From the NCBI RefSeq assembly GCF_017814915.1, contig NZ_JAGIPZ010000001.1, forward strand, positions 683,559 through 747,558: 64,000 bases of DNA, given 5' to 3'. Position numbers and translations under genes: made by a program. Origin of the DNA: Herbaspirillum sp. LeCh32-8. GTDB lineage: Bacteria; Pseudomonadota; Gammaproteobacteria; Burkholderiales; Burkholderiaceae_D. Below the pieces are notes generated by a model. It made no database searches and had not been told where the DNA came from. It saw only the letters and a list, made by a program, of their open reading frames with translations. Of the stretch, positions 6,801 through 19,536 are shown one piece after another (within the stretch, counting starts at the first letter, position 1; each line of letters opens with the position of its first letter).

Positions 6801-6927
6801 CGGCCACAGGCATGGCAGGCGCTTGCCAACACCATTGCGTCGGCATCTCCCCGTTGTTTTCCTGACGCTCCGCCCCGATCCTCGTGGCGGAGCTGATCTT
6901 GCATCCAATCCGATCAAGGAGTTATCG

Positions 6928-7536
6928 ATGTCGAAAGCATTCGAATCGGCGGAAAACAAAGCCTTCCGTATAAATCTTTTTTACGTCCTGACCGGCGGTC
7001 CAGGCACAGGTAAGACGACGTTGCTGGCAGCCTTGCTAGACGCCGGTTACGGCGTCAAGGAAGAGGCGGGCCGGGGCGTGATCCGGCGCCAGATGGTAGC
7101 CGGCGGCGACGCGTTGCCATGGAAGGATCGTCTGGCGTTCTCCGCCGAGATGCTTGAGGCGGAATTGCGCCTGCATGAGGCGCATGCCGGACGGAGGGCC
7201 CCGGTCTTTTGCGACCGAGGCATTCCCGATGTACTTGGCTACATGCAGTTGGAAGACCTGGACAAGCTATCACAAGCTGCCGGATTGCTGGCGCGGGTGA
7301 AGCAGGCCGCCGGAAAGTGGCGATATGCGGAGCCGGTCTTTATCTTGCCGCCGTGGCGGGAGATTTATGAAACTGACCGCGAGCGCAGGCAGGACTGGGC
7401 GACGGCGGTCGCCACGCACGACGCGATGAGGGCAGTCTATGCGGCGCTGGGTTACCGGGTCGTCTCGTTGCCGCCGGGTAGCCCGGCGCAGCGGCGAGAT
7501 CAGGTGTTGGGGCAGCTGGAGCGGCACGCCGGATGA
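6928..7536 (+). CDS. P-loop ATPase, AAA_28/NadR-like family
   Basis: A 202-residue stand-alone nucleotide-binding protein. The Walker A loop GGPGTGKTT is at residues 23-31. A kinase-like CDRGIPD motif (Asp96-Arg97) follows, and the C-terminus carries a short helix with SPAQRRDQVLGQL. It resembles predicted ATPases of the AAA_28/NadR kinase-like group (COG3911 type); substrate unknown. The AAGGAG at 6916-6921 supports the ATG at 6928. It stands alone between def and the convergent cphA operon, and no partner gene hints at its role. Confidence 0.75.
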   Translation: MSKAFESAENKAFRINLFYVLTGGPGTGKTTLLAALLDAGYGVKEEAGRGVIRRQMVAGGDALPWKDRLAFSAEMLEAELRLHEAHAGRRAPVFCDRGIPDVLGYMQLEDLDKLSQAAGLLARVKQAAGKWRYAEPVFILPPWREIYETDRERRQDWATAVATHDAMRAVYAALGYRVVSLPPGSPAQRRDQVLGQLERHAG

Positions 7537-7589: not shown

Positions 7590-10163
7590 TCAGGCGCTAT
7601 CCTTGACGCGCATGTTGATGTGCGCCAGCGCTTCTTCCACCTGGTCGATCAGGATCAGGCACAGGTCGCCCGGCTGGAGTGACGCCAGGGCGGTGTCGAT
7701 GGCCAGGAACTCGCCGTAGATCTCCTTGACGTCGCTGGTGCGGCTGGCCTTTTCCAGGCCGCGCTGCAGCAGCGCGATTACTTCGCCGTCGACGCGGCCG
7801 CGCTGACATTGGTCCTGGTACAGCACCACTTCGTCGAAGGCATCGCCCAGCAATTCGGTCTGGCGGGTGATGTCGTCGTCGCGGCGGTCGCCGGCGCCGC
7901 TGATGACCACCGAGCGGCGCTGGGCGGGCATGCTGTCCACGGCCTTGATCAGGGCGGCGATGGCGTCCGGATTGTGGCCGTAGTCGGCGATCAGGGTGGC
8001 GCCCTTGTAGTCGAACAGGTTGAAGCGGCCCGGGGCGGTGCCGCTGTCGCTGATGAAGCTGGCCAGGGCGCCGGTGACTTGCTCCCAATCCAGGCCCAGC
8101 GCCCAGGCGGCGCCGACCGAGGCCATCACGTTCTCGACCTGGAAACCGATGGCGCCGCTGCGGGTCAGCGGGATGCCGGAGAGCTTCAGGCGTTTCTCGA
8201 AGTCGCCCTGCGCGGCCACGATGGCGTCGCCGTCGCGATAGACGATGCGGTGACCCTGGGCGCGATGGGTGGCCATGATCGGGTGGGCCGGGTCCAGCGC
8301 GAAGAAGGTGACCGAGCCGGGGCAGGAGGCTGCCATCCTTGACACCATCGGATCGGCCGCGTTGAGCACGGCGGTGCCGGTGGGCGCCACGTTCTCGACG
8401 ATCACGCGCTTGACCACTGCCAGGTCTTCCACGGTGCTGATGTAGGACAGGCCCAGGTGGTCGCCCATGCCGATGTTGGTCACCACGGCCACGGCGCAAC
8501 GGTCGAAGCCCAGGCCTTCGCGCAGTACGCCGCCACGCGCGGTCTCGAGCACGGCGGCGTCGACGTCCGGGTGGAACAGCACGTTGCGCGCGCTGCGCGG
8601 GCCGCTGCAGTCGCCGGTGTCGGTGCGCTGGCCGTCGATGTAGACACCGTCGGTGTTGGTCATGCCCACGCGCAGGCCGGTCTTGGCCAGCAGGTGGGTG
8701 ATCAGGCGTACGGTGGTGGTCTTGCCGTTGGTGCCGGCCACCGCCACCACGGGAATGCGGCCGTCGTCGCCGTCTTCGTACATGGTGGAGATGATCGCTT
8801 CGCCGACGTCGCGGCTCTTGCCGTAGGACGGCGAGAGGTGCATGCGCAGGCCGGGCGCGGCGTTGACTTCGACGATGCCGCCGCCTTGCTCTTCCATCGA
8901 CATGTGGACCGAGTTGCAAACCACGTCGACGCCGCAGATGTCCAGGCCGACCATCTGCGCCGCCGCGATGGCGCGTGCGGCCATGTCGGGGTGCACGTCG
9001 TCGGTGACGTCGGTGGCGGTGCCGCCGGTGGACAGGTTGGCGTTGTTGCGCAGAACCACGCGCACGCCCTGGGCCGGAATGGCTTCAGGATCGAGGTTCT
9101 GGGCGGACAGCACGGACAGCGCGATGTCGTCCAGGCGGATCTTGGTCAGCGAAGTGGCGTGGCCGTCGCCGCGCGCCGGGTCGGCGTTGACCTGGTCGAT
9201 CAGCTGGCGGATGGTGTGCACGCCGTCGCCGATGACTTGCGGCGGATCGCGGCGGGCCGCAGCCACCAGCGTCTTGCCGATCACCAGCAGGCGGAAGTCG
9301 TGGCCCGACAGGTAGCGCTCGACGATGACCTCGTCGCTGATCTTGGCGGCATTGGCGAAGGCGTGTTCGATCTGCGCGCGGGTGCTGATGTTGACGGCGA
9401 CGCCCTTGCCCTGGTTGCCGTCCAGCGGCTTGATCACGACCGCGGCGCCGATTTCCTCGGCGGCCTTGAGCGCGTCTTCCACGGTGGTGACCACGCGGCC
9501 GTTGGGCACCGGCACGCCGGCGGCGTGCAGCAGCATCTTGGTCAGGTCCTTGTCCTGCGCGATCGACTCGGCGATGGCGCTGGTGTTGCTGGTCTCGGCG
9601 GCCTGGATACGCTTCTGGCGGCTGCCCCAGCCGAACTGCACCATGCTGCCCTGGGTCAGCCGGCGGAATGGAATGCCGCGCTTGACGGCGGCGTTGACGA
9701 TGGAGCCGGTGCTGGGGCCCAGGCGCACGTCTTCATCCAGCTCGCGGATGCGGGCAAGCGCTGCGGTCAGGTCGAACGGGGTGTCGGCTTGTGCGGCCAG
9801 GCACAGCTCCAGCGCCAGGTCGAAGGCCAGGCGGCCGACTTCCTCTTCGCTGTACTCGACCACGACCTGGTAGATGCCGGTTTCGATGGTGGAAACGGTG
9901 CGGCTGAAGGTGACCGGGCAGCCGGCCTGCGATTGCAGGGCGAGGGCGGCTGCGGCCAGCGCATGCGCCATCGATACGACCTGCTTGCCGCCGTCAGGCT
10001 CAAGGAAGCCGATCTGCGGGAAGCGGGCGCGCAGGCGCACCTCGAAGCCGGGCATGTCGTCCACCACCCGTTCCGATTCCGGACAGGAAACGATGGCTTC
10101 GATGGCAGTGTGTCTGCACCAGAGATTGGGGCCGCGCAGTGCGCGTATGCGGGATACGTCCAT
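7590..10163 (-). CDS. cphA: Cyanophycin synthetase CphA (full-length type)
   Basis: Polymerises Asp and Arg into the nitrogen/carbon storage polymer cyanophycin (multi-L-arginyl-poly-L-aspartate). The 857 residues contain the N-terminal domain (RALRGPNLW), an ATP-grasp domain (VVIKPLDGNQGKGV, VEVNAAPGLRMH) and a Mur-ligase-like domain. The latter has its P-loop AGTNGKTTT near residue 475 and a complete C-terminal lobe (APGRFNLFDYKG, ADYGHNPDA, GAGDRRDDD). It is the second gene of a two-gene operon, 67 bases after the shorter paralogue. No cyanophycinase gene is in the window. Confidence 0.93.
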   Translation of the reverse strand: MDVSRIRALRGPNLWCRHTAIEAIVSCPESERVVDDMPGFEVRLRARFPQIGFLEPDGGKQVVSMAHALAAAALALQSQAGCPVTFSRTVSTIETGIYQVVVEYSEEEVGRLAFDLALELCLAAQADTPFDLTAALARIRELDEDVRLGPSTGSIVNAAVKRGIPFRRLTQGSMVQFGWGSRQKRIQAAETSNTSAIAESIAQDKDLTKMLLHAAGVPVPNGRVVTTVEDALKAAEEIGAAVVIKPLDGNQGKGVAVNISTRAQIEHAFANAAKISDEVIVERYLSGHDFRLLVIGKTLVAAARRDPPQVIGDGVHTIRQLIDQVNADPARGDGHATSLTKIRLDDIALSVLSAQNLDPEAIPAQGVRVVLRNNANLSTGGTATDVTDDVHPDMAARAIAAAQMVGLDICGVDVVCNSVHMSMEEQGGGIVEVNAAPGLRMHLSPSYGKSRDVGEAIISTMYEDGDDGRIPVVAVAGTNGKTTTVRLITHLLAKTGLRVGMTNTDGVYIDGQRTDTGDCSGPRSARNVLFHPDVDAAVLETARGGVLREGLGFDRCAVAVVTNIGMGDHLGLSYISTVEDLAVVKRVIVENVAPTGTAVLNAADPMVSRMAASCPGSVTFFALDPAHPIMATHRAQGHRIVYRDGDAIVAAQGDFEKRLKLSGIPLTRSGAIGFQVENVMASVGAAWALGLDWEQVTGALASFISDSGTAPGRFNLFDYKGATLIADYGHNPDAIAALIKAVDSMPAQRRSVVISGAGDRRDDDITRQTELLGDAFDEVVLYQDQCQRGRVDGEVIALLQRGLEKASRTSDVKEIYGEFLAIDTALASLQPGDLCLILIDQVEEALAHINMRVKDSA

Positions 10164-10230
10164 GGACAGGTTTTCCTAATGTCTCTTGATCTTGAATCTG
10201 GTCTGTGTTGCCTTGCCGCTGCGCCTTGGA

Positions 10231-12429
10231 TCAGGCGACCTGGCTCTTGAACTTCAGGCCTTGCTGCTCCGCCTGCTCGGTGCCGAACAGCTCGATGCCG
10301 GCGCGGATCACTTCGGGCGAAATGCCCAGCGCCCACGCCGCGCCGACTGCCGCCAGCACGTTCTCGACCTGGTAGGCCACGGCGCCGTTTTCGGTCAGCG
10401 GGATGGCGTCCACCGAGCTGACCTTGACTTCGCGATCGCCCTCGGCCTGGATCAGGTCGCCGCCGCGCAGGAACACGGCGCGTTTTCCTTCCTTCAGGTG
10501 CGCCGCCACCAGCTCGGACTGCGGTTCGGTGCTGAAGAAGATCACTTCGCCGTCGCACAGCTGCGCCATGTCGGCCACCAGCGCGTCGTCGGCGTTCAAC
10601 ACGGCTGCGCCGTCCGGCAGCACCAGGTCGACCTGGGTGCGCTTGACCTTGGTGGCGATCTGTTCGGCGTTCTCGATGTAGTACTCGGGCAGGCTGTCGT
10701 CGGGGTCGATGTTGGCGACCACGCCGACCAGGCAGCGGTCGTAGGCCAGGCCTTCGGCGAGGATGGAGACGCTGCCGTTTTCGAACACGGCGGCTTCCAC
10801 GGCGCGGTTGAGCAGCACGCGATGGGCTGCTTCCCAGTTGGCGCGGTTGCCGCGCTCGACCTGGCGTTCGCCGAAATACAGGCCGTCGCCGCAGGCCAGG
10901 CCGACATGCTTGCCGGAGAGGTGAATGATGCGCGCGACCAGGCGCGAAATGGTGGTCTTGCCGTGGGTGCCGGTGACGCCCACGACCGGAATGCGGCCGG
11001 TTTCGTCCTCGCCGAACAGGTTGTTGACGATGGCTTCGCCCACCGGGCGCGGCTTGCCGTCGGAGGGCTTCAGGTGCATCAGCAGGCCCGGGCCGGCATT
11101 GACTTCGACGATGGCGCCGCCCTGGTCGGCCAGCGGGCGGGTGATGTCTTCGGCCACGATGTCGACCCCGGCGATGTCCAGGCCGACGATGCGCGCGGCC
11201 AGCGAAGCGGCGGCGGCCACGCTGGGGTGGACCTTGTCGGTGACGTCGGAAGAGACATTGCCGTTGCGCAACAGCAGGATGCGGCGACCGGCGGCCGGCA
11301 CCGAGTCGACGGTCAGTTTCTGGCGCTGCAGTTCCAGCACGGCGGCCGGTTCGCGTTCCAGCAGCACGGGGTCCAACAAGTGTTCTTCCAGCAGGCCGCG
11401 GCGCGGGTCGCGGTTGAGCTCGTCGAGCAGCTGCTGTACGGTCGACTTGCCGTCGCCGATGATGAAGATGGGTTCGCCGCGGGCGGCCGCGGCCAGCTTG
11501 CCGCCGACGATCAGCAGGCGGTGCTCCAGGCCCGGCACGAAGCGCTCGACCAGCACGCCGCTGCCTTCTTCCAGTGCGACCTTGTAGGCGGTCTCGATTT
11601 CCTCGCGGGTGTTCAGGTCAATGAACACACCGCGGCCATGGTTGGCGTCGCAGGGCTTGACCACCACCGGCAGGCCGATGTCTTCAGCGGCATCCCATGC
11701 ATCTTCCGGGCTTTCCACCAGGCGGCCTTCGGGCACCGGTACGCCGCAGTTTTCCAGCAGGGTCTTGGTCAGGTCCTTGTCGCGCGAGACGCTCTCGGCG
11801 ATGGCGCTGGTGTCGTCCGATTCGGCGGTCCAGATGCGACGCGAATTGCAGCCATGGCCCAGCTGCACCAGGTTGCCTTCGGACAGGCGGATGGTGGGGA
11901 TGCGGCGTTCTTCGGCGGCATCCACGATGCAGGCGGTGCTCGGACCCAGGCAGAGCTTGTCGACCATGCGGCGCAGTTTTTCCAGCGCGGCGTCGACGTC
12001 GAACGGGCGGTCTTCGATGGCGGCCATCACCAGATCGCGGGCGGCGTACAGCGCGGCGCGGGTGACCGTCTCATGACGGGCGCGCACCACCACCTTGTAG
12101 ACGCCGCGCACATTGGTCTCGCGCGCCTTGCCGAAGCCGCCGGGCAGGCCGGCCAGGTTCTGCAGTTCCAGCGTGACGTGTTCCAGGATGTGGCCGGGCC
12201 AGGTGCCTTCTTCCAGCCGGCGCACGAAGCCGCCGCGCACTTCATAGCTGCAGCGGTGCTCGATGAGCGTGGGCAGCCAGGTGGTCAGGCGCTGGGTGAA
12301 GCCGGGGATGGTGTTAGAAGGAAAGTCTTCCAGTTCGCCGATGTCGATCCACACTTCGAGGGCCGAGCGGTAGGTCCAGATGTTGGGACCTTTCAAGGGC
12401 AGGAAACGGAGGAATTCGATGTTTTTCAT
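10231..12429 (-). CDS. cphA: Cyanophycin synthetase paralogue lacking the C-terminal Mur lobe (CphA2/CphA'-like)
   Basis: At 732 residues it has the same order of domains as its neighbour: N-terminal domain (LKGPNIWTYRSALEVW), ATP-grasp (VVVKPCDANHGRGV, VEVNAGPGLLMH) and a Mur-type P-loop GVTGTHGKTT near residue 486. It stops shortly after VAYQVENVLAAVGAAWALG. The last Mur lobe with the APGR...DYGHNPDA motifs, present in the 857-residue paralogue, is missing. Shortened synthetases of this kind are known as CphA2 in cyanobacteria, where they join beta-Asp-Arg dipeptides; two-cphA arrangements occur in betaproteobacteria. Which activity this one has is inference. It is first in the operon. Confidence 0.88.
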   Translation of the reverse strand: MKNIEFLRFLPLKGPNIWTYRSALEVWIDIGELEDFPSNTIPGFTQRLTTWLPTLIEHRCSYEVRGGFVRRLEEGTWPGHILEHVTLELQNLAGLPGGFGKARETNVRGVYKVVVRARHETVTRAALYAARDLVMAAIEDRPFDVDAALEKLRRMVDKLCLGPSTACIVDAAEERRIPTIRLSEGNLVQLGHGCNSRRIWTAESDDTSAIAESVSRDKDLTKTLLENCGVPVPEGRLVESPEDAWDAAEDIGLPVVVKPCDANHGRGVFIDLNTREEIETAYKVALEEGSGVLVERFVPGLEHRLLIVGGKLAAAARGEPIFIIGDGKSTVQQLLDELNRDPRRGLLEEHLLDPVLLEREPAAVLELQRQKLTVDSVPAAGRRILLLRNGNVSSDVTDKVHPSVAAAASLAARIVGLDIAGVDIVAEDITRPLADQGGAIVEVNAGPGLLMHLKPSDGKPRPVGEAIVNNLFGEDETGRIPVVGVTGTHGKTTISRLVARIIHLSGKHVGLACGDGLYFGERQVERGNRANWEAAHRVLLNRAVEAAVFENGSVSILAEGLAYDRCLVGVVANIDPDDSLPEYYIENAEQIATKVKRTQVDLVLPDGAAVLNADDALVADMAQLCDGEVIFFSTEPQSELVAAHLKEGKRAVFLRGGDLIQAEGDREVKVSSVDAIPLTENGAVAYQVENVLAAVGAAWALGISPEVIRAGIELFGTEQAEQQGLKFKSQVA

Positions 12430-13220
12430 GTCTGGAGATATGCCGCGTAAATTACCGTTTGTGTCTATCTGTGGTGCCGGACCGCTTGGTGTTGCCGGGC
12501 TGTTATTTGTGAAACGTTTTCAGGCTCGTCTTCCGTTGACCTCGCGAAACAAAGTGGCGCCACTCGTTACAGCCGGACTGCAGCGTCTTTCCCGTGGCGC
12601 CGGCGCTGCAAGCTCTTCCTTACGGGGCGGCGTCATGGCGGGTTGGGCGGGTTCCGAAAAGGTACGACAGAATTTCTCGGTCAGCATTCCGTCAGAATAG
12701 CGCATGCTCCACTAACGTGTTCGAAGGCGTTTGGTTTACTGGGAATGACGAAAGAATAAGCTCGGGGCGGACGAGGCCTTGCCCGGCGGAAAATCAAGGG
12801 GTGCGCCTCGCGCGGAAAATCAGGTCGAGTTTGCTGGCGGCAGAGGCGGATCTCATTGGAGTTATGCTTGTTCTGAGGATGTGATTGGCCGCTATTGTCG
12901 CAGAGTGTCCGGTGGCCGTGGCGCGAATTAACCAAAAAAACGACGGTCAACATGGTGTAGACCGGCCGCAGACGCCCTTGCCGCCGCGCTTTCGCATTGT
13001 GCGGGAAACGTGGCTGAGCTCATGCGTGCACCGTTTGGCGGTGTCTGGCGTTATGCGAGGAACGCATGAACATGCAAGAGACGCAAGAGACGTATTCGCC
13101 GTGGATGGCAGGGCGATGCCGGCAGGGGCTGCGCTATAATCCCGCGCTGCCCGCATCGGGCCTTGCCATTCACTCACAACCAGCCAAAACTGCTCGCTTC
13201 GGGCCTAATGTTGCCGTTAA
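12430..13220. other. Divergent cphA / ABC-exporter intergenic region
   Basis: These 791 bases separate two divergent units of the cyanophycin locus and hold no convincing gene; the short open frames lack ribosome-binding sites and family resemblance. The direct repeat GCGGAAAATCA occurs at 12786-12796 and 12812-12822, 26 bases apart. A TATAAT lies at 13135-13140. This is where joint regulation of the locus would be expected. Confidence 0.6.
13135..13140 (+). promoter_or_regulatory. Putative -10 box for the ABC-exporter/DUF1854 operon
   Basis: A consensus TATAAT lies 80 bases before the exporter ATG. No good -35 hexamer is found at 16-18 bases, so if it is a promoter it probably needs an activator. 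Confidence 0.5.
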
Positions 13221-15497
13221 ATGACTACTGATTCCCTTCCTTCCGCCACTGCCAGCCTGCCCGAACGCTGGAGAGCGGAAACTGCCGCCCGCCTGGCCGC
13301 CGACGAGAAGATCGCGGCCTGGCTGGAGCTGGACCTCGATTCGCAACTGCAATTTCGCACCTCCCTGTTGGTGGCCACCGAAACCCGTTTGCTGGCCAAC
13401 ACCCCCGAAGGTACGGTGTGGCAGGAATGGCAATACAGTCCCGAGCTGAACCTGAAGCACTTCGACCACGCAGGCGTGGGCACGCTGGAGCTGTGCGACG
13501 GCGCTGGCCGCCTGGCCGCCTGGCGCTACACGCTGGCGCAAAATCCCCAGGCGCTGCGCCTGATCAAGTTGTTCGAGCAGCAGCGCGACCTGCTGGCTTC
13601 CGGTGTGAGGCCGGTGGAAGAGGGCGACGTCTGCCCGCAATGCAAGGCACCCATCCCCGAAGGCCAGGAGGCCTGCGCCATCTGCCCGGAAACCAAGGAG
13701 GCGCCGCCGTCCACCTGGGCGCTGTTCCGCCTGTCGCGCTTTGCCAAGCCGTACAAGGGATCGCTGCTGCTGGGCTTCCTGCTGACGCTGGCCTCTACGG
13801 CCGCCACGCTGGTGCCGCCGTACATGACTATGCCGCTGATGGATAACGTGCTGATCCCGTTCCAGAACGGCGCGCCGATCGACACCCACCTGGCCATGCT
13901 CTACCTGTCCGGCCTCTTGGGCGCGGCCTTGCTGGCCTGGGGCCTGGGTTGGGCGCGCACCTACATTCTGGCGCTGGTGTCCGAGCGCATCGGCGCCGAT
14001 TTGCGCACCACCACCTATGAGCATCTGCTGCGTCTGTCGCAGGAATATTTCGGCGGCAAGCGCACCGGCGACCTGATGGCGCGCATCGGGTCGGAGACCG
14101 ACCGCATCTGCGTGTTCCTCTCGCTGCACCTGCTGGACTTCGCCATCGACGTGCTGATGATCATCATGACGGCGGCCATCCTGATCTCGATCAACCCCTG
14201 GCTGGCGCTGGTCACCCTGCTGCCGCTGCCGTTCATCGCCTGGATGATTCATGTGGTGCGCGACCGCCTGCGTCACGGCTTCGAGAAGATCGATCGTATC
14301 TGGTCGGAAGTGACCAACGTGCTGGCCGACACCATCCCCGGCATCCGCGTGGTCAAGGCCTTCGCCCAGGAAAAGCGCGAAGTGGCACGCTTTCGCGAGG
14401 CCAACCGCCACAATCTGATGGTCAACGACCGCGTCAACAAGATCTGGTCGCTGTTCACGCCGACCGTGACCTTCCTGACCGAAGTGGGCCTGCTGGTGGT
14501 GTGGGTGTTCGGCATCTGGCAGGTGTCCAACAACCAGATCACGGTGGGTGTGCTGACCGCCTTCCTGGCCTATATCAGCCGTTTCTACACCCGTCTGGAT
14601 TCGATGAGCCGCATCGTGTCGGTGACGCAGAAGGCCGCCGCCGGCGCCAAGCGCATCTTCGACATCCTGGATCACGTCTCCAGCGTGCCTGAGCCGGCCA
14701 ACCCAGTTCACCTGGAAAAGGTGAAGGGCGCCATCGAGGTGCGCAACATCGGCTTCCGCTACGGCAACCGTGCGGTGATCCGCAACATGAGCCTGTCGAT
14801 CGCGCCGGGCGAGATGATCGGCCTGGTCGGCCACAGCGGTTCCGGCAAGTCGACCATGGTCAACCTGATCTGCCGCTTCTATGACGTCTCCGAAGGCGCG
14901 ATCCGCATCGACGGCGTCGACATCCGCTCGCTGCCGATTTCTGAATACCGCCGCAACATCGGCCTGGTGCTGCAGGAGCCGTTCCTGTTCTTCGGCACCA
15001 TCGCCGAGAACATCGCCTATGGCAAACCGGAAGCTACGCGGGAGGAGATCGTTGCCGCCGCACGTGCAGCGCACGCGCACGAGTTCATCCTGCGCCTGCC
15101 GCAGGGTTACGACTCGCTGGTGGGCGAACGCGGCCAGGCGCTTTCGGGCGGTGAACGCCAGCGTATTTCGATCGCTCGCGCGCTGCTGATCGACCCGCGC
15201 ATCCTGATCCTGGACGAGGCCACCTCGTCGGTGGATACCACCACCGAGAAGGAGATTCAGAAGGCGCTGGACAACCTGGTCCAGGGTCGCACCACGATCG
15301 CCATCGCGCACCGCCTGTCGACGCTGCGCAAGGCCGATCGCCTGGTGGTGCTGGACCGCGGCCAGGTGGTCGAGGTCGGCAACCACGAGGAATTGATGGC
15401 GCGCGAGGGCCATTACTACAAGCTGTACCAGGCGCAGGCGCGCAATCCTGACGGCGAGGCGGAAGTCTCGGTCAGCGACGACGAGAAGGGTGAATGA
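13221..15497 (+). CDS. Cyanophycin-associated ABC exporter with N-terminal zinc-ribbon-type domain
   Basis: A 758-residue fused exporter half-transporter. Residues ~1-165 are an extra soluble domain ending in a CxxC-N10-CxxC motif (Cys138, 141, 152, 155), probably a zinc ribbon. Residues ~175-470 form the six-helix ABC exporter membrane domain, and ~500-745 the ATPase with Walker A GHSGSGKST (537-545), signature LSGGERQ (641-647) and LILDEATSS. It overlaps the DUF1854 gene by four bases and faces the cphA operon. That neighbourhood is why such genes are called cyanophycin-metabolism-associated. The cargo is unknown. Confidence 0.88.
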   Translation: MTTDSLPSATASLPERWRAETAARLAADEKIAAWLELDLDSQLQFRTSLLVATETRLLANTPEGTVWQEWQYSPELNLKHFDHAGVGTLELCDGAGRLAAWRYTLAQNPQALRLIKLFEQQRDLLASGVRPVEEGDVCPQCKAPIPEGQEACAICPETKEAPPSTWALFRLSRFAKPYKGSLLLGFLLTLASTAATLVPPYMTMPLMDNVLIPFQNGAPIDTHLAMLYLSGLLGAALLAWGLGWARTYILALVSERIGADLRTTTYEHLLRLSQEYFGGKRTGDLMARIGSETDRICVFLSLHLLDFAIDVLMIIMTAAILISINPWLALVTLLPLPFIAWMIHVVRDRLRHGFEKIDRIWSEVTNVLADTIPGIRVVKAFAQEKREVARFREANRHNLMVNDRVNKIWSLFTPTVTFLTEVGLLVVWVFGIWQVSNNQITVGVLTAFLAYISRFYTRLDSMSRIVSVTQKAAAGAKRIFDILDHVSSVPEPANPVHLEKVKGAIEVRNIGFRYGNRAVIRNMSLSIAPGEMIGLVGHSGSGKSTMVNLICRFYDVSEGAIRIDGVDIRSLPISEYRRNIGLVLQEPFLFFGTIAENIAYGKPEATREEIVAAARAAHAHEFILRLPQGYDSLVGERGQALSGGERQRISIARALLIDPRILILDEATSSVDTTTEKEIQKALDNLVQGRTTIAIAHRLSTLRKADRLVVLDRGQVVEVGNHEELMAREGHYYKLYQAQARNPDGEAEVSVSDDEKGE

Positions 15498-15991
15498 AGA
15501 TGACCATGACGACAAACCCTGCTCAGCAGCCGTCCTTCGGCCTGCATCGCAACAGCTTCGGTCGCCTGGTGTTCACGGGCGCTGACGGCGCCTCGCACGA
15601 GAACGTGATTCCGGTACGCGCTTTCCCGGTCAGTGCGCCCGACGGCGGCGTGTCGGTGGTGTCCAGCGACGGCCACGAACTGGCGTGGATCGACCGTCTG
15701 GAACAGGTGGAGGTGGAGGCGCGCAAGCTGATCGAGGAAGAGCTCGCCAGCCGCGAATTCATGCCGGAGATTTGCCGCATCGTCGGCGTGTCTACCTTCG
15801 CCACCCCGAGCGACTGGACGGTGCAGACTTCGCGCGGCGTGACCACTTTCACGCTCAAGGGCGAGGAGGACATCCGCCGCCTGCCGAACTCGGCGCTGCT
15901 GATTGCCGACAGCCACAGCATCCAGTTCCTGGTGCGCGACCTGAAGGCGCTGGACAAGCACAGCCGCAAGATTCTGGATCGCTTCCTCTGA
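15494..15991 (+). CDS. DUF1854 family protein, cyanophycin-associated
   Basis: A 165-residue soluble protein of the DUF1854 family, with no signal peptide or membrane segment. The start overlaps the exporter stop in ATGA, which implies translational coupling. Further in-frame ATGs at 15500 and 15506 are alternative starts. Visible features include a charged helix (EQVEVEARKLIEEELASREF) and a C-terminal segment GEEDIRRLPNSALLIADSHS. Its steady pairing with the ABC exporter suggests an accessory subunit; the biochemical role is unknown. Confidence 0.85.
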   Translation: MKMTMTTNPAQQPSFGLHRNSFGRLVFTGADGASHENVIPVRAFPVSAPDGGVSVVSSDGHELAWIDRLEQVEVEARKLIEEELASREFMPEICRIVGVSTFATPSDWTVQTSRGVTTFTLKGEEDIRRLPNSALLIADSHSIQFLVRDLKALDKHSRKILDRFL

Positions 15992-16983: not shown

Positions 16984-19536
16984 TCAGACGCGCAGCGTGG
17001 CCAGCAGTTCGGTTTCCAGCATGATCTGGTTGCGCGGCTGGGACAGGCCAGGGCCGTCGATCAGGAACACGTCTTCCACGCGTTCGCCCAACGTCATCAC
17101 CTTGGCGGTGTGCAGGTTGATCTTGTACTTGGCCAGCACGTTGGAGATCGAGTACAGCAGCCCGGCGCGATCGTTGGCCGAGATCGACAGCAAGTAGTAC
17201 TGGCCGCGCTCGTCGGGGCGCAGGTCCACCGAGGGATTGACCGGGAAAGTGCGCGACAGGCGCGACAGGCGCGCCTTGGAGGGCGCCGGCAGCGGGGCGT
17301 CGGACTTCAGCAGCTCGCCCAGTTCGTGCTCGATCAGGTTGATGATGTCGCGGTAGTTCTTGGCGAACACCGGGGCGTTGATGAGGAAGGCGTCCAGCGC
17401 GTAGTCGTTCTTCGTGGTGTGGATCTTGGCGTCGAAGATGCTGAAGCTTTTTTCGTCGAAGTAGCTGCAGATGCGCGCGAACAGGTCGGCGCGGTCGGGC
17501 GTGTAGACCGCCACCTGCACGCCTTCGCCGATCGGCGCCAGGCGGCAGCGCACCAGCGGCACGCCGGTGTCGACCTTGTCGTAGAAGCAGCGCGTCTGCC
17601 AGGCGATGTCGGAGGCGTCGTGGCGCAGGAAGTAGGCCACGTCGAGCTGTTTCCAGAACTGCTCGTGGGCGTCTGCAGGCAGGCCGTACAGGCGCAGCGT
17701 CTTGATCGCTTCCTGCTGGGTGTTCTTGAGCTCGCGGTCGGTCGACGGCGCCTCGCCGCCCAGCACGCGCAGGGTGATGCGATACAGGTCTTCCAGCAGC
17801 TTGCCCTTCCAGGCATTCCACACCTTGGGGCTGGTGCCGCGGATGTCGGCCACCGTCAGCAGGTAGAGCGCGGTCAGGTGACGCTCGTCCTTGACCAGTT
17901 GCGCGAAGGCGGTGATGACGTCGGGATCCGACAAGTCCTGCTTTTGCGCCACGTGCGACATCGCCAGGTGCTGCTCCACCAGGAACACAATCAGCTCGGT
18001 GTTTTCGGGGGAGATGTCGTGCTGCACGCAGAACTGGCGGGCGTCGTCCATGCCCAGCTTGGAATGGTCGCCGCCACGCCCCTTGGCGATGTCGTGGAAC
18101 AGCGCTGCCACGTACAGCACCCAGGGTTGGCCGAAGTTGGCCATCAGCTGGCTGCAGAAGGGGTATTCGTGCGCGTGCTCGCTCATCGTGAAGCGGCGCA
18201 CGTTGCGCACCACCATCAGGATGTGCTGGTCCACCGTGTAGACGTGGAACAGGTCGTGCTGCATCTGGCCGACGATATGGCGGAAGTTCGGCAGGTAGCG
18301 GCCCAGCACGCTGGTGGCGTTCATGCGGCGCAGGGCGTGCATGATGCCGCGCTTGGCCTGGATGATGCGCATGAAGAGCCGGTGGTTTTCCGGGTTGGCG
18401 CGGAAGGCGTTGTCGATCTTGAAGCGGGCGTGCCACAGCGCACGCATGGTGCGCGCCGACATGTCTTTCAACTCGGGGTGCTCGGCCAGCACCAGGAATA
18501 CTTCCAGCATGGCCGAGGGGGTCTCTTCGAACACGTTGTCGTGGGCGATGTCGACGAAGCGATTGACCTCGTTGAAGCGTTCATTGATCTGGCGCGGCAC
18601 GGCCGGCTGCGGGAACAGGTGGGCCTCGATGTTTTGCAGCAGGATGGTGTTGAGCTGCACCACCGCCTTGGCTGCCCAGTAATACCGCTGCATCAGGTAT
18701 TCGCTGGCGCGGCGGGTGTCGGTGGTCTTGAAGCCGAAGGTCTCGGCGATCGGCGTCTGGATGTCGAACACCAGGCGGTCTTCGCGGCGGTCGGTGACGA
18801 TGTGCAGGCGGATGCGGATGTCCTTGAAGGCGCGCTCCTTCTGGCGCAGCTGGCGCGCCTCGGTGGAGGTCAGCATGCCGTGCTCGGCCAGCTTGGTCCA
18901 GGAGTCGCCCAGCCCGGCCGCCTTGGCCACCCACAGGATGACTTGCAGGTCGCGCAGGCCGCCCGGGCTTTCCTTGCAGTTGGGCTCCAGGCTGTAGGGA
19001 GTGTCTTCGTACTTGATGTGACGCTGGCGCATTTCCAGTGTTTTCGCCTGGAAGAAGGCCAGCGGGTCGAGCGCGGCGTGGTAGCGCTCCTGCAGGTGCT
19101 TGAACAGCGCGCGGCTGCCGGTGACCAGGCGGGCCTCCAAGAGGCTGGTCTGCACGGTGATGTCGGCCGCCGATTCATCCATGCACTCGTCGATGGTGCG
19201 GATGCTGTGGCCGATTTCCAGGCCGATGTCCCAGAACAGCTGCACCAGTGACTCCAGCTTGGCCTTCTCCGCGCCGTCCGGCGCATGGGGCAGCAGGATC
19301 AGCACGTCCACGTCCGAATGCGGGAACAGCTCGCCGCGGCCATAGCCGCCCACGGCCACCAGCGCGGCCTCGGCCGGCATGCCCAGCTCTTCCCAGGCCT
19401 GGGTGAGGGCAGCGTCGACGTTGCGGCGCAGCTGGGTCAGCAGCTGTTCGGTCTTGTGATTGGTCTGAAAGGCGTCGATGGCCTGCTGACGGGCGGCCTT
19501 GAGCTGCTTCTTGAGCGTGACGGCGAGTATCGGCAT
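16984..19536 (-). CDS. glnD: Bifunctional [protein-PII] uridylyltransferase/uridylyl-removing enzyme GlnD
   Basis: Senses glutamine and adds or removes UMP on PII proteins, which controls nitrogen assimilation. Of 850 residues, the nucleotidyltransferase motif GGYGRGELFPHSDVDVL lies near 65-85 and the HD hydrolase motif LFHDIAKGRGGDHS near 478. Two C-terminal ACT domains start near 675 and 784. All active motifs look intact. map lies upstream on the same strand, separated by a gap with a large hairpin. Cyanophycin synthesis 5 kb away is also a nitrogen-storage function, though no direct link is visible. Confidence 0.97.
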   Translation of the reverse strand: MPILAVTLKKQLKAARQQAIDAFQTNHKTEQLLTQLRRNVDAALTQAWEELGMPAEAALVAVGGYGRGELFPHSDVDVLILLPHAPDGAEKAKLESLVQLFWDIGLEIGHSIRTIDECMDESAADITVQTSLLEARLVTGSRALFKHLQERYHAALDPLAFFQAKTLEMRQRHIKYEDTPYSLEPNCKESPGGLRDLQVILWVAKAAGLGDSWTKLAEHGMLTSTEARQLRQKERAFKDIRIRLHIVTDRREDRLVFDIQTPIAETFGFKTTDTRRASEYLMQRYYWAAKAVVQLNTILLQNIEAHLFPQPAVPRQINERFNEVNRFVDIAHDNVFEETPSAMLEVFLVLAEHPELKDMSARTMRALWHARFKIDNAFRANPENHRLFMRIIQAKRGIMHALRRMNATSVLGRYLPNFRHIVGQMQHDLFHVYTVDQHILMVVRNVRRFTMSEHAHEYPFCSQLMANFGQPWVLYVAALFHDIAKGRGGDHSKLGMDDARQFCVQHDISPENTELIVFLVEQHLAMSHVAQKQDLSDPDVITAFAQLVKDERHLTALYLLTVADIRGTSPKVWNAWKGKLLEDLYRITLRVLGGEAPSTDRELKNTQQEAIKTLRLYGLPADAHEQFWKQLDVAYFLRHDASDIAWQTRCFYDKVDTGVPLVRCRLAPIGEGVQVAVYTPDRADLFARICSYFDEKSFSIFDAKIHTTKNDYALDAFLINAPVFAKNYRDIINLIEHELGELLKSDAPLPAPSKARLSRLSRTFPVNPSVDLRPDERGQYYLLSISANDRAGLLYSISNVLAKYKINLHTAKVMTLGERVEDVFLIDGPGLSQPRNQIMLETELLATLRV

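Follow-up and report, generated by a model that had tools for sequence, protein, structure and literature searches.

The window analysed here is a stretch of 64,000 nucleotides from Herbaspirillum sp. LeCh32-8, lying on a contig of 1.15 Mb. It carries two genes for paralogous synthetases of the nitrogen-rich polymer cyanophycin, cphA and cphA', which stand divergent from a gene for an ATP-binding cassette (ABC) exporter that overlaps a gene for a protein of the DUF1854 family. This layout had been proposed in a first-pass annotation, and we found all four open reading frames exactly at the coordinates given there; frames and family profiles together confirmed the arrangement. The exporter stop and the DUF1854 start share 4 bp, ATGA, at 15494-15497. 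The features of the locus are listed below, with the cyanophycin synthetase SuCphA1 as reference for equivalent residues.

7590..10163, minus strand: cphA, a cyanophycin synthetase paralogue of 857 amino acids with predicted intact M (arginine-adding) site, lost N-domain hydrolase site and Gln at the G-domain His position (NF010623, 1240.9 bits; residue tests)
8529..8546, minus strand: ETARGG motif of the M (Mur-ligase-like) site, CphA residues 540-545 (residue mapping)
9411..9413, minus strand: Gln251 of CphA, equivalent of SuCphA1 His267 in the G domain (alignment)
10231..12429, minus strand: cphA', a paralogue of 732 amino acids with predicted intact N-domain site and G-domain His, degraded M site and no Mur-ligase C lobe (profiles, residue tests)
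12178..12258, minus strand: N-domain metallopeptidase motif HxC-x19-HxxEH, CphA' residues 58-84 (pattern; motif as defined in PMC9262961)
11638..11640, minus strand: His264 of CphA', equivalent of SuCphA1 His267 (alignment)
12430..13220, no strand: intergenic region that separates the divergent cphA' and exporter genes (Rfam and sigma-54 scans without signal)
13221..15497, plus strand: ABC exporter of NF052233, with an N-terminal region, ABC_membrane and ABC_tran (NF052233, PF00664, PF00005)
13632..13685, plus strand: zinc-ribbon-like CxxC...CxxC of the exporter, after its N-terminal region and before its membrane domain (weak DZR match, E 0.012; in 66 of 83 homologues)
15494..15991, plus strand: DUF1854 protein of NF052234, 165 amino acids (NF052234, PF08909)

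Both synthetases passed the NF010623 cyanophycin synthetase cut-off of 877 bits, CphA with 1240.9 and CphA' with 1079.7 bits, while the TIGR02068 cut-off of 850 bits was passed by CphA (979.8 bits) but not by CphA' (785.7 bits). No match to Mur_ligase_C (PF02875) was found in CphA'. The two proteins are 42.6% identical over 726 aligned columns. The exporter (1462.5 bits, cut-off 880) and the DUF1854 protein (234 bits, cut-off 150, with a further match to PF08909) are full members of their families, well over the cut-offs, and the whole Herbaspirillum genome holds one DUF1854 match.

Using an evenly drawn sample of 250 genomes of the order (Burkholderiales) and the family-profile cut-offs of NF052233, NF052234 and NF010623, we found that exporter and DUF1854 protein exceed their cut-offs in the same 85 genomes. 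CphA was over its cut-off in 92 genomes, namely all 85 with the pair and 7 without it. The pair was found in none of the 158 genomes that have no full CphA, two of which (G319 and G412) hold a CphA fragment (~1e-174). The idea that the pair belongs to cyanophycin metabolism is thus upheld, since it is far from being as frequent without cphA (85 of 92 CphA genomes versus 0 of 158 others). The co-occurrence has a Fisher p of 4e-59. Because the genomes are related, the mixing within families and genera is a better argument than this p value: genomes with and without the genes occur side by side in 18 of 51 families and in 7 of 120 genera, and within these groups CphA, exporter and DUF1854 are jointly present or absent. 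The discordant genomes in these mixed groups are G305, whose contig ends inside an exporter gene beside cphA', and G319, which is 79% complete. Moreover, the pair was retained in six genomes where it does not adjoin the synthetases, lying ~8 kb (G218) or ~13 kb (G298) from them, far apart (G329, G366 and G388) or on another contig (G397).

In a phylum sample of 398 genomes (DUF1854 at E <= 0.001, CphA at E <= 1e-150), 22 genomes gave a DUF1854 match and 29 had CphA. All 20 CphA genomes inside the order had DUF1854; among the nine outside it, G603 alone did, a metagenome-assembled genome (MAG) with 8% contamination. One genome, G759, gave a marginal DUF1854 match (27.1 bits, cut-off 26.8) without CphA over the cut-off. 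Within a class sample of 185 genomes, the three over the NF052234 cut-off (G000, G107, G091) all have CphA, and three below it (G001, G043, G184) have none. The four genes are a real module found across the order, and the linkage of exporter and DUF1854 to CphA is almost certainly a dedicated one. One CphA of the sample (L065, in G195) is split over two overlapping frames of 547 and 474 amino acids, by a frameshift or an assembly error.

In a search with TIGR02069, the pair and the cyanophycinase CphB were ALTERNATIVES across CphA genomes. The search covered all 94 genomes of the order with CphA or a strong fragment (80 + 14), plus 15 others. The 17 CphA genomes without the pair comprise nine in the order, including the fragments of G319 and G412, and eight outside, while the 92 with the pair are the 85 of the order sample, five further genomes of the order, G091 and G603. 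Without the pair, CphB was over the cut-off in 15 of 17 genomes, the remaining two being the assembly cases G305 and G319, and it lay at most ~2.3 kb from cphA in 14 of these 15 (on another contig in G269). With the pair, CphB was over the cut-off in 5 of 92 (G239, G285, G251, G205 and G396), and no CphB was found inside the pair-linked loci; the best CphB of G239 adjoins a second cphA locus. Seven further TIGR02069 matches in pair genomes are second matches in G239 (over the cut-off) and G251 (below it) and matches below the cut-off in G295, G366, G258, G189 and G730. The Fisher p for the exclusion is 2e-12 with all 17 genomes and 2e-14 without G305 and G319. The earlier remark that the window holds no cyanophycinase can be widened to the whole genome, rated 100% complete, where neither Peptidase_S51 (E <= 0.001) nor TIGR02069 gave a match.

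CphB-type loci also carry, beside cphA, a frame of 570-720 amino acids that matches only the M half of cyanophycin synthetase, after 180-260 amino acids of other sequence. These frames look like a stand-alone M-domain paralogue (L123:6803-8539, L175:2471-4246, L124:1570-3729), and M-half frames similar by size and score were seen in L119, L121, L122, L126, L173, L176 and L179.

For SuCphA1, it has been shown that the G site adds aspartate and is inactivated by H267A, and that the M site adds arginine and is inactivated by D585A H586A (PMC9262961). Its N domain is a cryptic metallopeptidase (H57, C59, H79, E82, H83; Cx19HxxEH) and acts as an endo-cyanophycinase whose main products are 4-mers; it is also active in trans, the isolated N domain serving TmCphA1 in this way (PMC9262961). 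The motif is optional, being present in 83% of nr70 CphA1s (PMC9262961). We mapped the site residues by alignment to SuCphA1 and took the counts from a MAFFT alignment of the locus homologues, then from fragments and extra loci; the 91 CphA' sequences are the 83 aligned ones, G378, G355, five further genomes of the order and G091.

The N residues H, C, H, E, H were complete in 83 of 83 aligned CphA' and in 91 of 91 with the added loci, and the CphA' of the window has the equivalents of H57, C59, H79, E82 and H83, its general-base Glu being E83. None of 91 CphA has the full set (three of these sequences were read from fragments). An alignment-independent pattern search for Cx19HxxEH hit 83 of 83 CphA' and 0 of 78 CphA. 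The M residues (P-loop G, G, K; Arg of ETARGG; His586) were intact in 78 of 78 CphA and in 11 further readable sequences (89 of 89), and P-loop, ETARGG, DH and GDRRD of this site are present in the CphA of the window. From CphA', ETARGG is missing in 91 of 91 and the C lobe in 73 of 83. At the position of His267, CphA' has His in 81 and Arg in 2 of 83 sequences, and CphA has Gln in 76 (including the window) and His in 2 of 78. The N site is the one feature that CphA' never loses in this sample; in G091 it was kept even though the G-domain His is lost too. Fourteen one-chain enzymes from CphB-type genomes (6 of the order, 8 from outside) carry the N, G and M residues in one protein. Judging from these residues, it is very likely that the two paralogues are complementary, CphA having kept M and lost N, and CphA' having kept N and lost M. 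A split of the G-domain activity was considered as well and was given up, as both G603 and the second locus of G239 count against it.

We built an unrooted maximum-likelihood tree of 77 G domains (334 columns) from 28 random CphA, 28 random CphA', the window, and one-chain and extra sequences. Ultrafast bootstrap (UFBoot) values were 99 for the split of all pair-linked enzymes, 100 for CphA', 92 for CphA and 94 for CphA together with G603. A FastTree run gave the same groups, and the one-chain enzymes did not form one clade. On these trees CphA and CphA' are sister paralogues, and a single duplication, followed by loss of different sites, would be the simplest reading. The CphA of G603 (L181, C9) branches at the base of the CphA group; here the pair stands beside a single CphA with N site and Gln267, and neither CphA' nor CphB was found in this contaminated MAG. 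This gives a hint, and only a hint, that the pair may predate the division of labour and that the G site probably stays active with Gln267.

The exporter has ABC_membrane (PF00664) and ABC_tran (PF00005) on one chain. Its ATPase motifs are intact, with Walker A and H-loop in 83 of 83 and LSGGE and Walker B in 82 of 83 homologues, and its membrane domain is strongly conserved. In at least 66 of 83 homologues the CxxC...CxxC motif lies ahead of the membrane domain; this is a lower bound, since the motif may go unseen where a frame has a long upstream extension. A model of the N-terminal region had a predicted local distance difference test (pLDDT) score of 45.6 and was unusable. Among 84 DUF1854 homologues, no position has a His or Cys with more than 90% conservation, while some Asp, Ser and Glu are nearly invariant. 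The AlphaFold2 model of DUF1854 (three sequences, pLDDT 69) has two beta-meanders with a helix closing each, and its structural matches, several of them PH-like, are too weak to name a fold. Nine sequence matches in the PDB (E 8e-5 to 0.75), eight of them to designed repeat proteins and the other to a translation factor, were taken as chance. DUF1854 and the exporter N-terminal region as repeats of one fold were likewise rejected, there being no profile similarity (probability 2.2 and 0.5), and the halves of DUF1854 gave only weak signs of an internal repeat (probability 9, E 0.0036). Among 14 control genomes scanned, Sulfolobus acidocaldarius carries DUF1854. According to Pfam, DUF1854 is found at the C terminus of ABC transporters.

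The association of exporter and DUF1854 with cyanophycin is not new in itself. NCBIfam names NF052233 "cyanophycin metabolism-associated ABC transporter" and NF052234 "cyanophycin metabolism-associated DUF1854 family protein", names that give the association only. The first-pass annotation was therefore right to tie the two proteins to cyanophycin, but its statement that they have no assigned role does not hold; a similar cluster has also been described (PMC10687191). As tasks for the pair, it suggested that a precursor, a dipeptide or a regulatory ligand might be moved, or cyanophycin tied to the envelope. In that 2023 work, the Group 1 cluster of sludge bacteria has, like the window, two cphA genes, an ABC transporter gene and no cphB; its role was left open, and cphB analogues and cyanophycin transport genes were called for in such clusters. 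Neither a DUF1854 gene nor a split of active sites nor a count across the order figures in the Group 1 section. Sideroxydans also has two adjoining synthetase genes and no cyanophycinase; unlike for the window, the passage on it mentions no exporter, DUF1854 or complementary sites, and it names the second enzyme CphA2 (PMC5178258).

A recognisable cyanophycinase was reported for only 2.8% of 903 CphA1-encoding betaproteobacterial genomes, compared with at least 95.6% in the other named clades and 70% in 'Other' (PMC10206079). This shortage was called unanticipated, and unknown isozymes were suggested (PMC10206079). As of 2016, Betaproteobacteria were described as being without any detected cyanophycinase (PMC5178258). 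Our literature search, which left subscription journals and preprints mostly outside, found DUF1854 mentioned nowhere, and among the papers listed for cyanophycin with transporter, exporter or endo-cyanophycinase no work on a split synthetase surfaced. What is added here is the CphB exclusion, the complementary synthetase split and the order-wide counts. The first-pass account was incomplete in that it missed both the complementarity of the two synthetases and the pair standing in the place of CphB.

Cyanophycin synthetase 1 (SuCphA1, TmCphA1), for which we take the entries 7lg5 and 7lgm, respectively, can be aligned with CphA and also with CphA' across all three domains, N, G and M. Like cyanobacterial CphA2, CphA' is without an active M domain. 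It falls outside CphA2 by score, with 541 bits against 7wac (CphA1) and 201 bits against 7ta5, which, like 8fxh, is presumably CphA2. CphA' also differs in keeping the N-domain motif, which is absent from CphA2 according to PMC9262961. The CphA1 described there is one chain, sometimes without N site, whereas here CphA is without the N site and CphA' without the M site. As in CphA-CphB clusters, a synthetase may stand beside a degradation function, but exporter, DUF1854 and a paralogous N-domain protein take the place of CphB.

We tentatively favour, at slightly less than even confidence, a variant system in which a duplicated and divided synthetase with a dedicated exporter replaces one-chain CphA and CphB. 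CphA would extend the chain and add arginine, and CphA' would cut and prime in trans, as primer-maker and endo-cyanophycinase for CphA; the two would perhaps form a mixed oligomer. Short beta-Asp-Arg oligomers cut by CphA' would then cross the inner membrane through the exporter with its zinc-ribbon N-terminal region, with DUF1854 as cytosolic adaptor, and cutting and export would take the place of CphB digestion in removing the polymer. Cleavage in trans by CphA' is probable, given the identity of its residues with the characterised site and the precedent of the SuCphA1 N domain (PMC9262961), which makes CphA' a candidate for the missing betaproteobacterial depolymerase. That the exporter moves cyanophycin fragments is suggested by its exclusive co-occurrence and its protein type, and we consider this possible rather than probable. 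It is an unlikely, further-reaching proposal that CphA' is the betaproteobacterial cyanophycinase, derived from a synthetase paralogue, and that the pair sends oligomers out, so that cyanophycin would be an exported material or a shared nitrogen good and not a private store. In any case, concrete candidates can now be named, the CphA' N domain for the missing cyanophycinase and exporter-DUF1854 for cyanophycin transport, and the question of the missing cyanophycinase becomes directly testable. A two-protein synthetase might also allow chain-length tuning for biotechnology.

Several points weigh against this variant system. The cphA homologues of Ralstonia eutropha H16 gave no cyanophycin in the host or in Escherichia coli (review, PMC8560796), which may mean that something else is made or that further components are required; an exported, short or different product would explain the result no less well than inactivity. 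The N-domain activity of SuCphA1 is slow (PMC9262961), perhaps too slow for mobilisation. The five pair genomes with a CphB homologue over the cut-off, and G603 with its pair beside a single N-site-bearing CphA and no CphA' found, depart from the expected pattern. In the second cphA locus of G239 (L092), CphB stands beside two synthetase frames, both with Gln267 and an incomplete N site, with the pair module elsewhere in the genome. Gln267 therefore accompanies functional-looking enzymes, and a CphB-linked synthetase can be without N site; the G sites are probably not divided between CphA and CphA'. Among the one-chain enzymes, the D585 column is a gap in two of 14 (L172, L174), and the strict Cx19 pattern was found in 0 of 9 CphB-type or fragment sequences, because the Cys-His spacing of the one-chain enzymes of the order is longer than 19 (~21 where read).

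Distant relatives have to be weighed in the same way. In two gammaproteobacterial MAGs outside the order, G184 (L128/L168) and G001 (L006/L169), an exporter built in the same way (N-terminal region, CxxC pairs) is followed by a distant DUF1854, without CphA. A third, G043 (L170/L182), has a distant DUF1854, no exporter seen in 16 kb and no CphA. A separate contig scan with a distant gammaproteobacterial query gave three MAGs. These pairs and the DUF1854 of G043 score below the family cut-off. The architecture is therefore broader than cyanophycin, with the NF052233/NF052234 subfamily being the dedicated one.

The strongest rival to the variant system, although we regard it as rather unlikely, is that the module makes a polymer other than cyanophycin, of a different amino acid or of short chains, which is exported, for example, to the periplasm or the surface and, not being a store, needs no cyanophycinase. 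The dedicated exporter with its intact ATPase motifs, the lack of a CphB found inside the module, the R. eutropha H16 result (PMC8560796) and the Gln at the G-domain position in 76 of 78 CphA would all agree with it. However, CphA agrees with one-chain cyanophycin synthetases at the M catalytic residues tested, CphA' agrees with a cyanophycin-cleaving site at the five N-site residues, and the same Gln is seen in the CphB-linked enzymes of G239.

Ordinary storage, with CphA and CphA' making and trimming cyanophycin inside the cell, some cytosolic enzyme digesting it, and the pair acting as an accessory (for excess arginine, a dipeptide or a stress metabolite) or as a regulator, appears a little less likely still. 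Isoaspartyl dipeptidases are present in 70.9% of CphA1-encoding betaproteobacteria (PMC10206079), and, as similar exporters with DUF1854 exist without CphA, the job of the family may be more general. Against this, the co-occurrence in 85 of 85 genomes, non-adjacent loci included, and the strongly conserved membrane domain suggest a specific role.

That DUF1854 itself is the missing cyanophycinase, held at the membrane by the exporter, would suit its presence mostly where CphB is not, its nearly invariant Asp, Ser and Glu and its lack of an assigned function, but we consider it very improbable in view of the absence of a His or Cys conserved above 90% and of the relatives without CphA; its model gave weak, partly PH-like matches. 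Least credible of all is a mobile composite transposon that would carry functionally unrelated genes along as a set. This was proposed for sludge bacteria, where the Group 1 cluster has two insertion sequences (PMC10687191), but in the window, where no search aimed at the ends of insertion sequences was made, a transposon found no support, since the module lies among housekeeping genes (to one side ligA, galU and def, to the other glnD, map and a gene for an RluF-like pseudouridine synthase), similar flanking frames form clusters of which the largest reaches 19 loci, the genes are kept jointly even where not adjacent, and neither DUF1854 nor its distant form had a tblastn match at E <= 0.01 in 72,556 plasmid records.

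With regard to regulation, no Rfam family reached the gathering threshold in the divergent region or the window, and sigma-54 promoters were not enriched in the divergent region, with 6 of 71 divergent loci compared with a shuffle mean of 4.2. The gene glnD, for the PII uridylyltransferase of nitrogen control, lies at 16984-19536 on the minus strand, ~1 kb past DUF1854; its proximity is probably local synteny, in view of the 19 loci mentioned above. On the other side, a gene for an AAA_28 domain protein (PF13521) at 6925-7536 on the plus strand is convergent with cphA.

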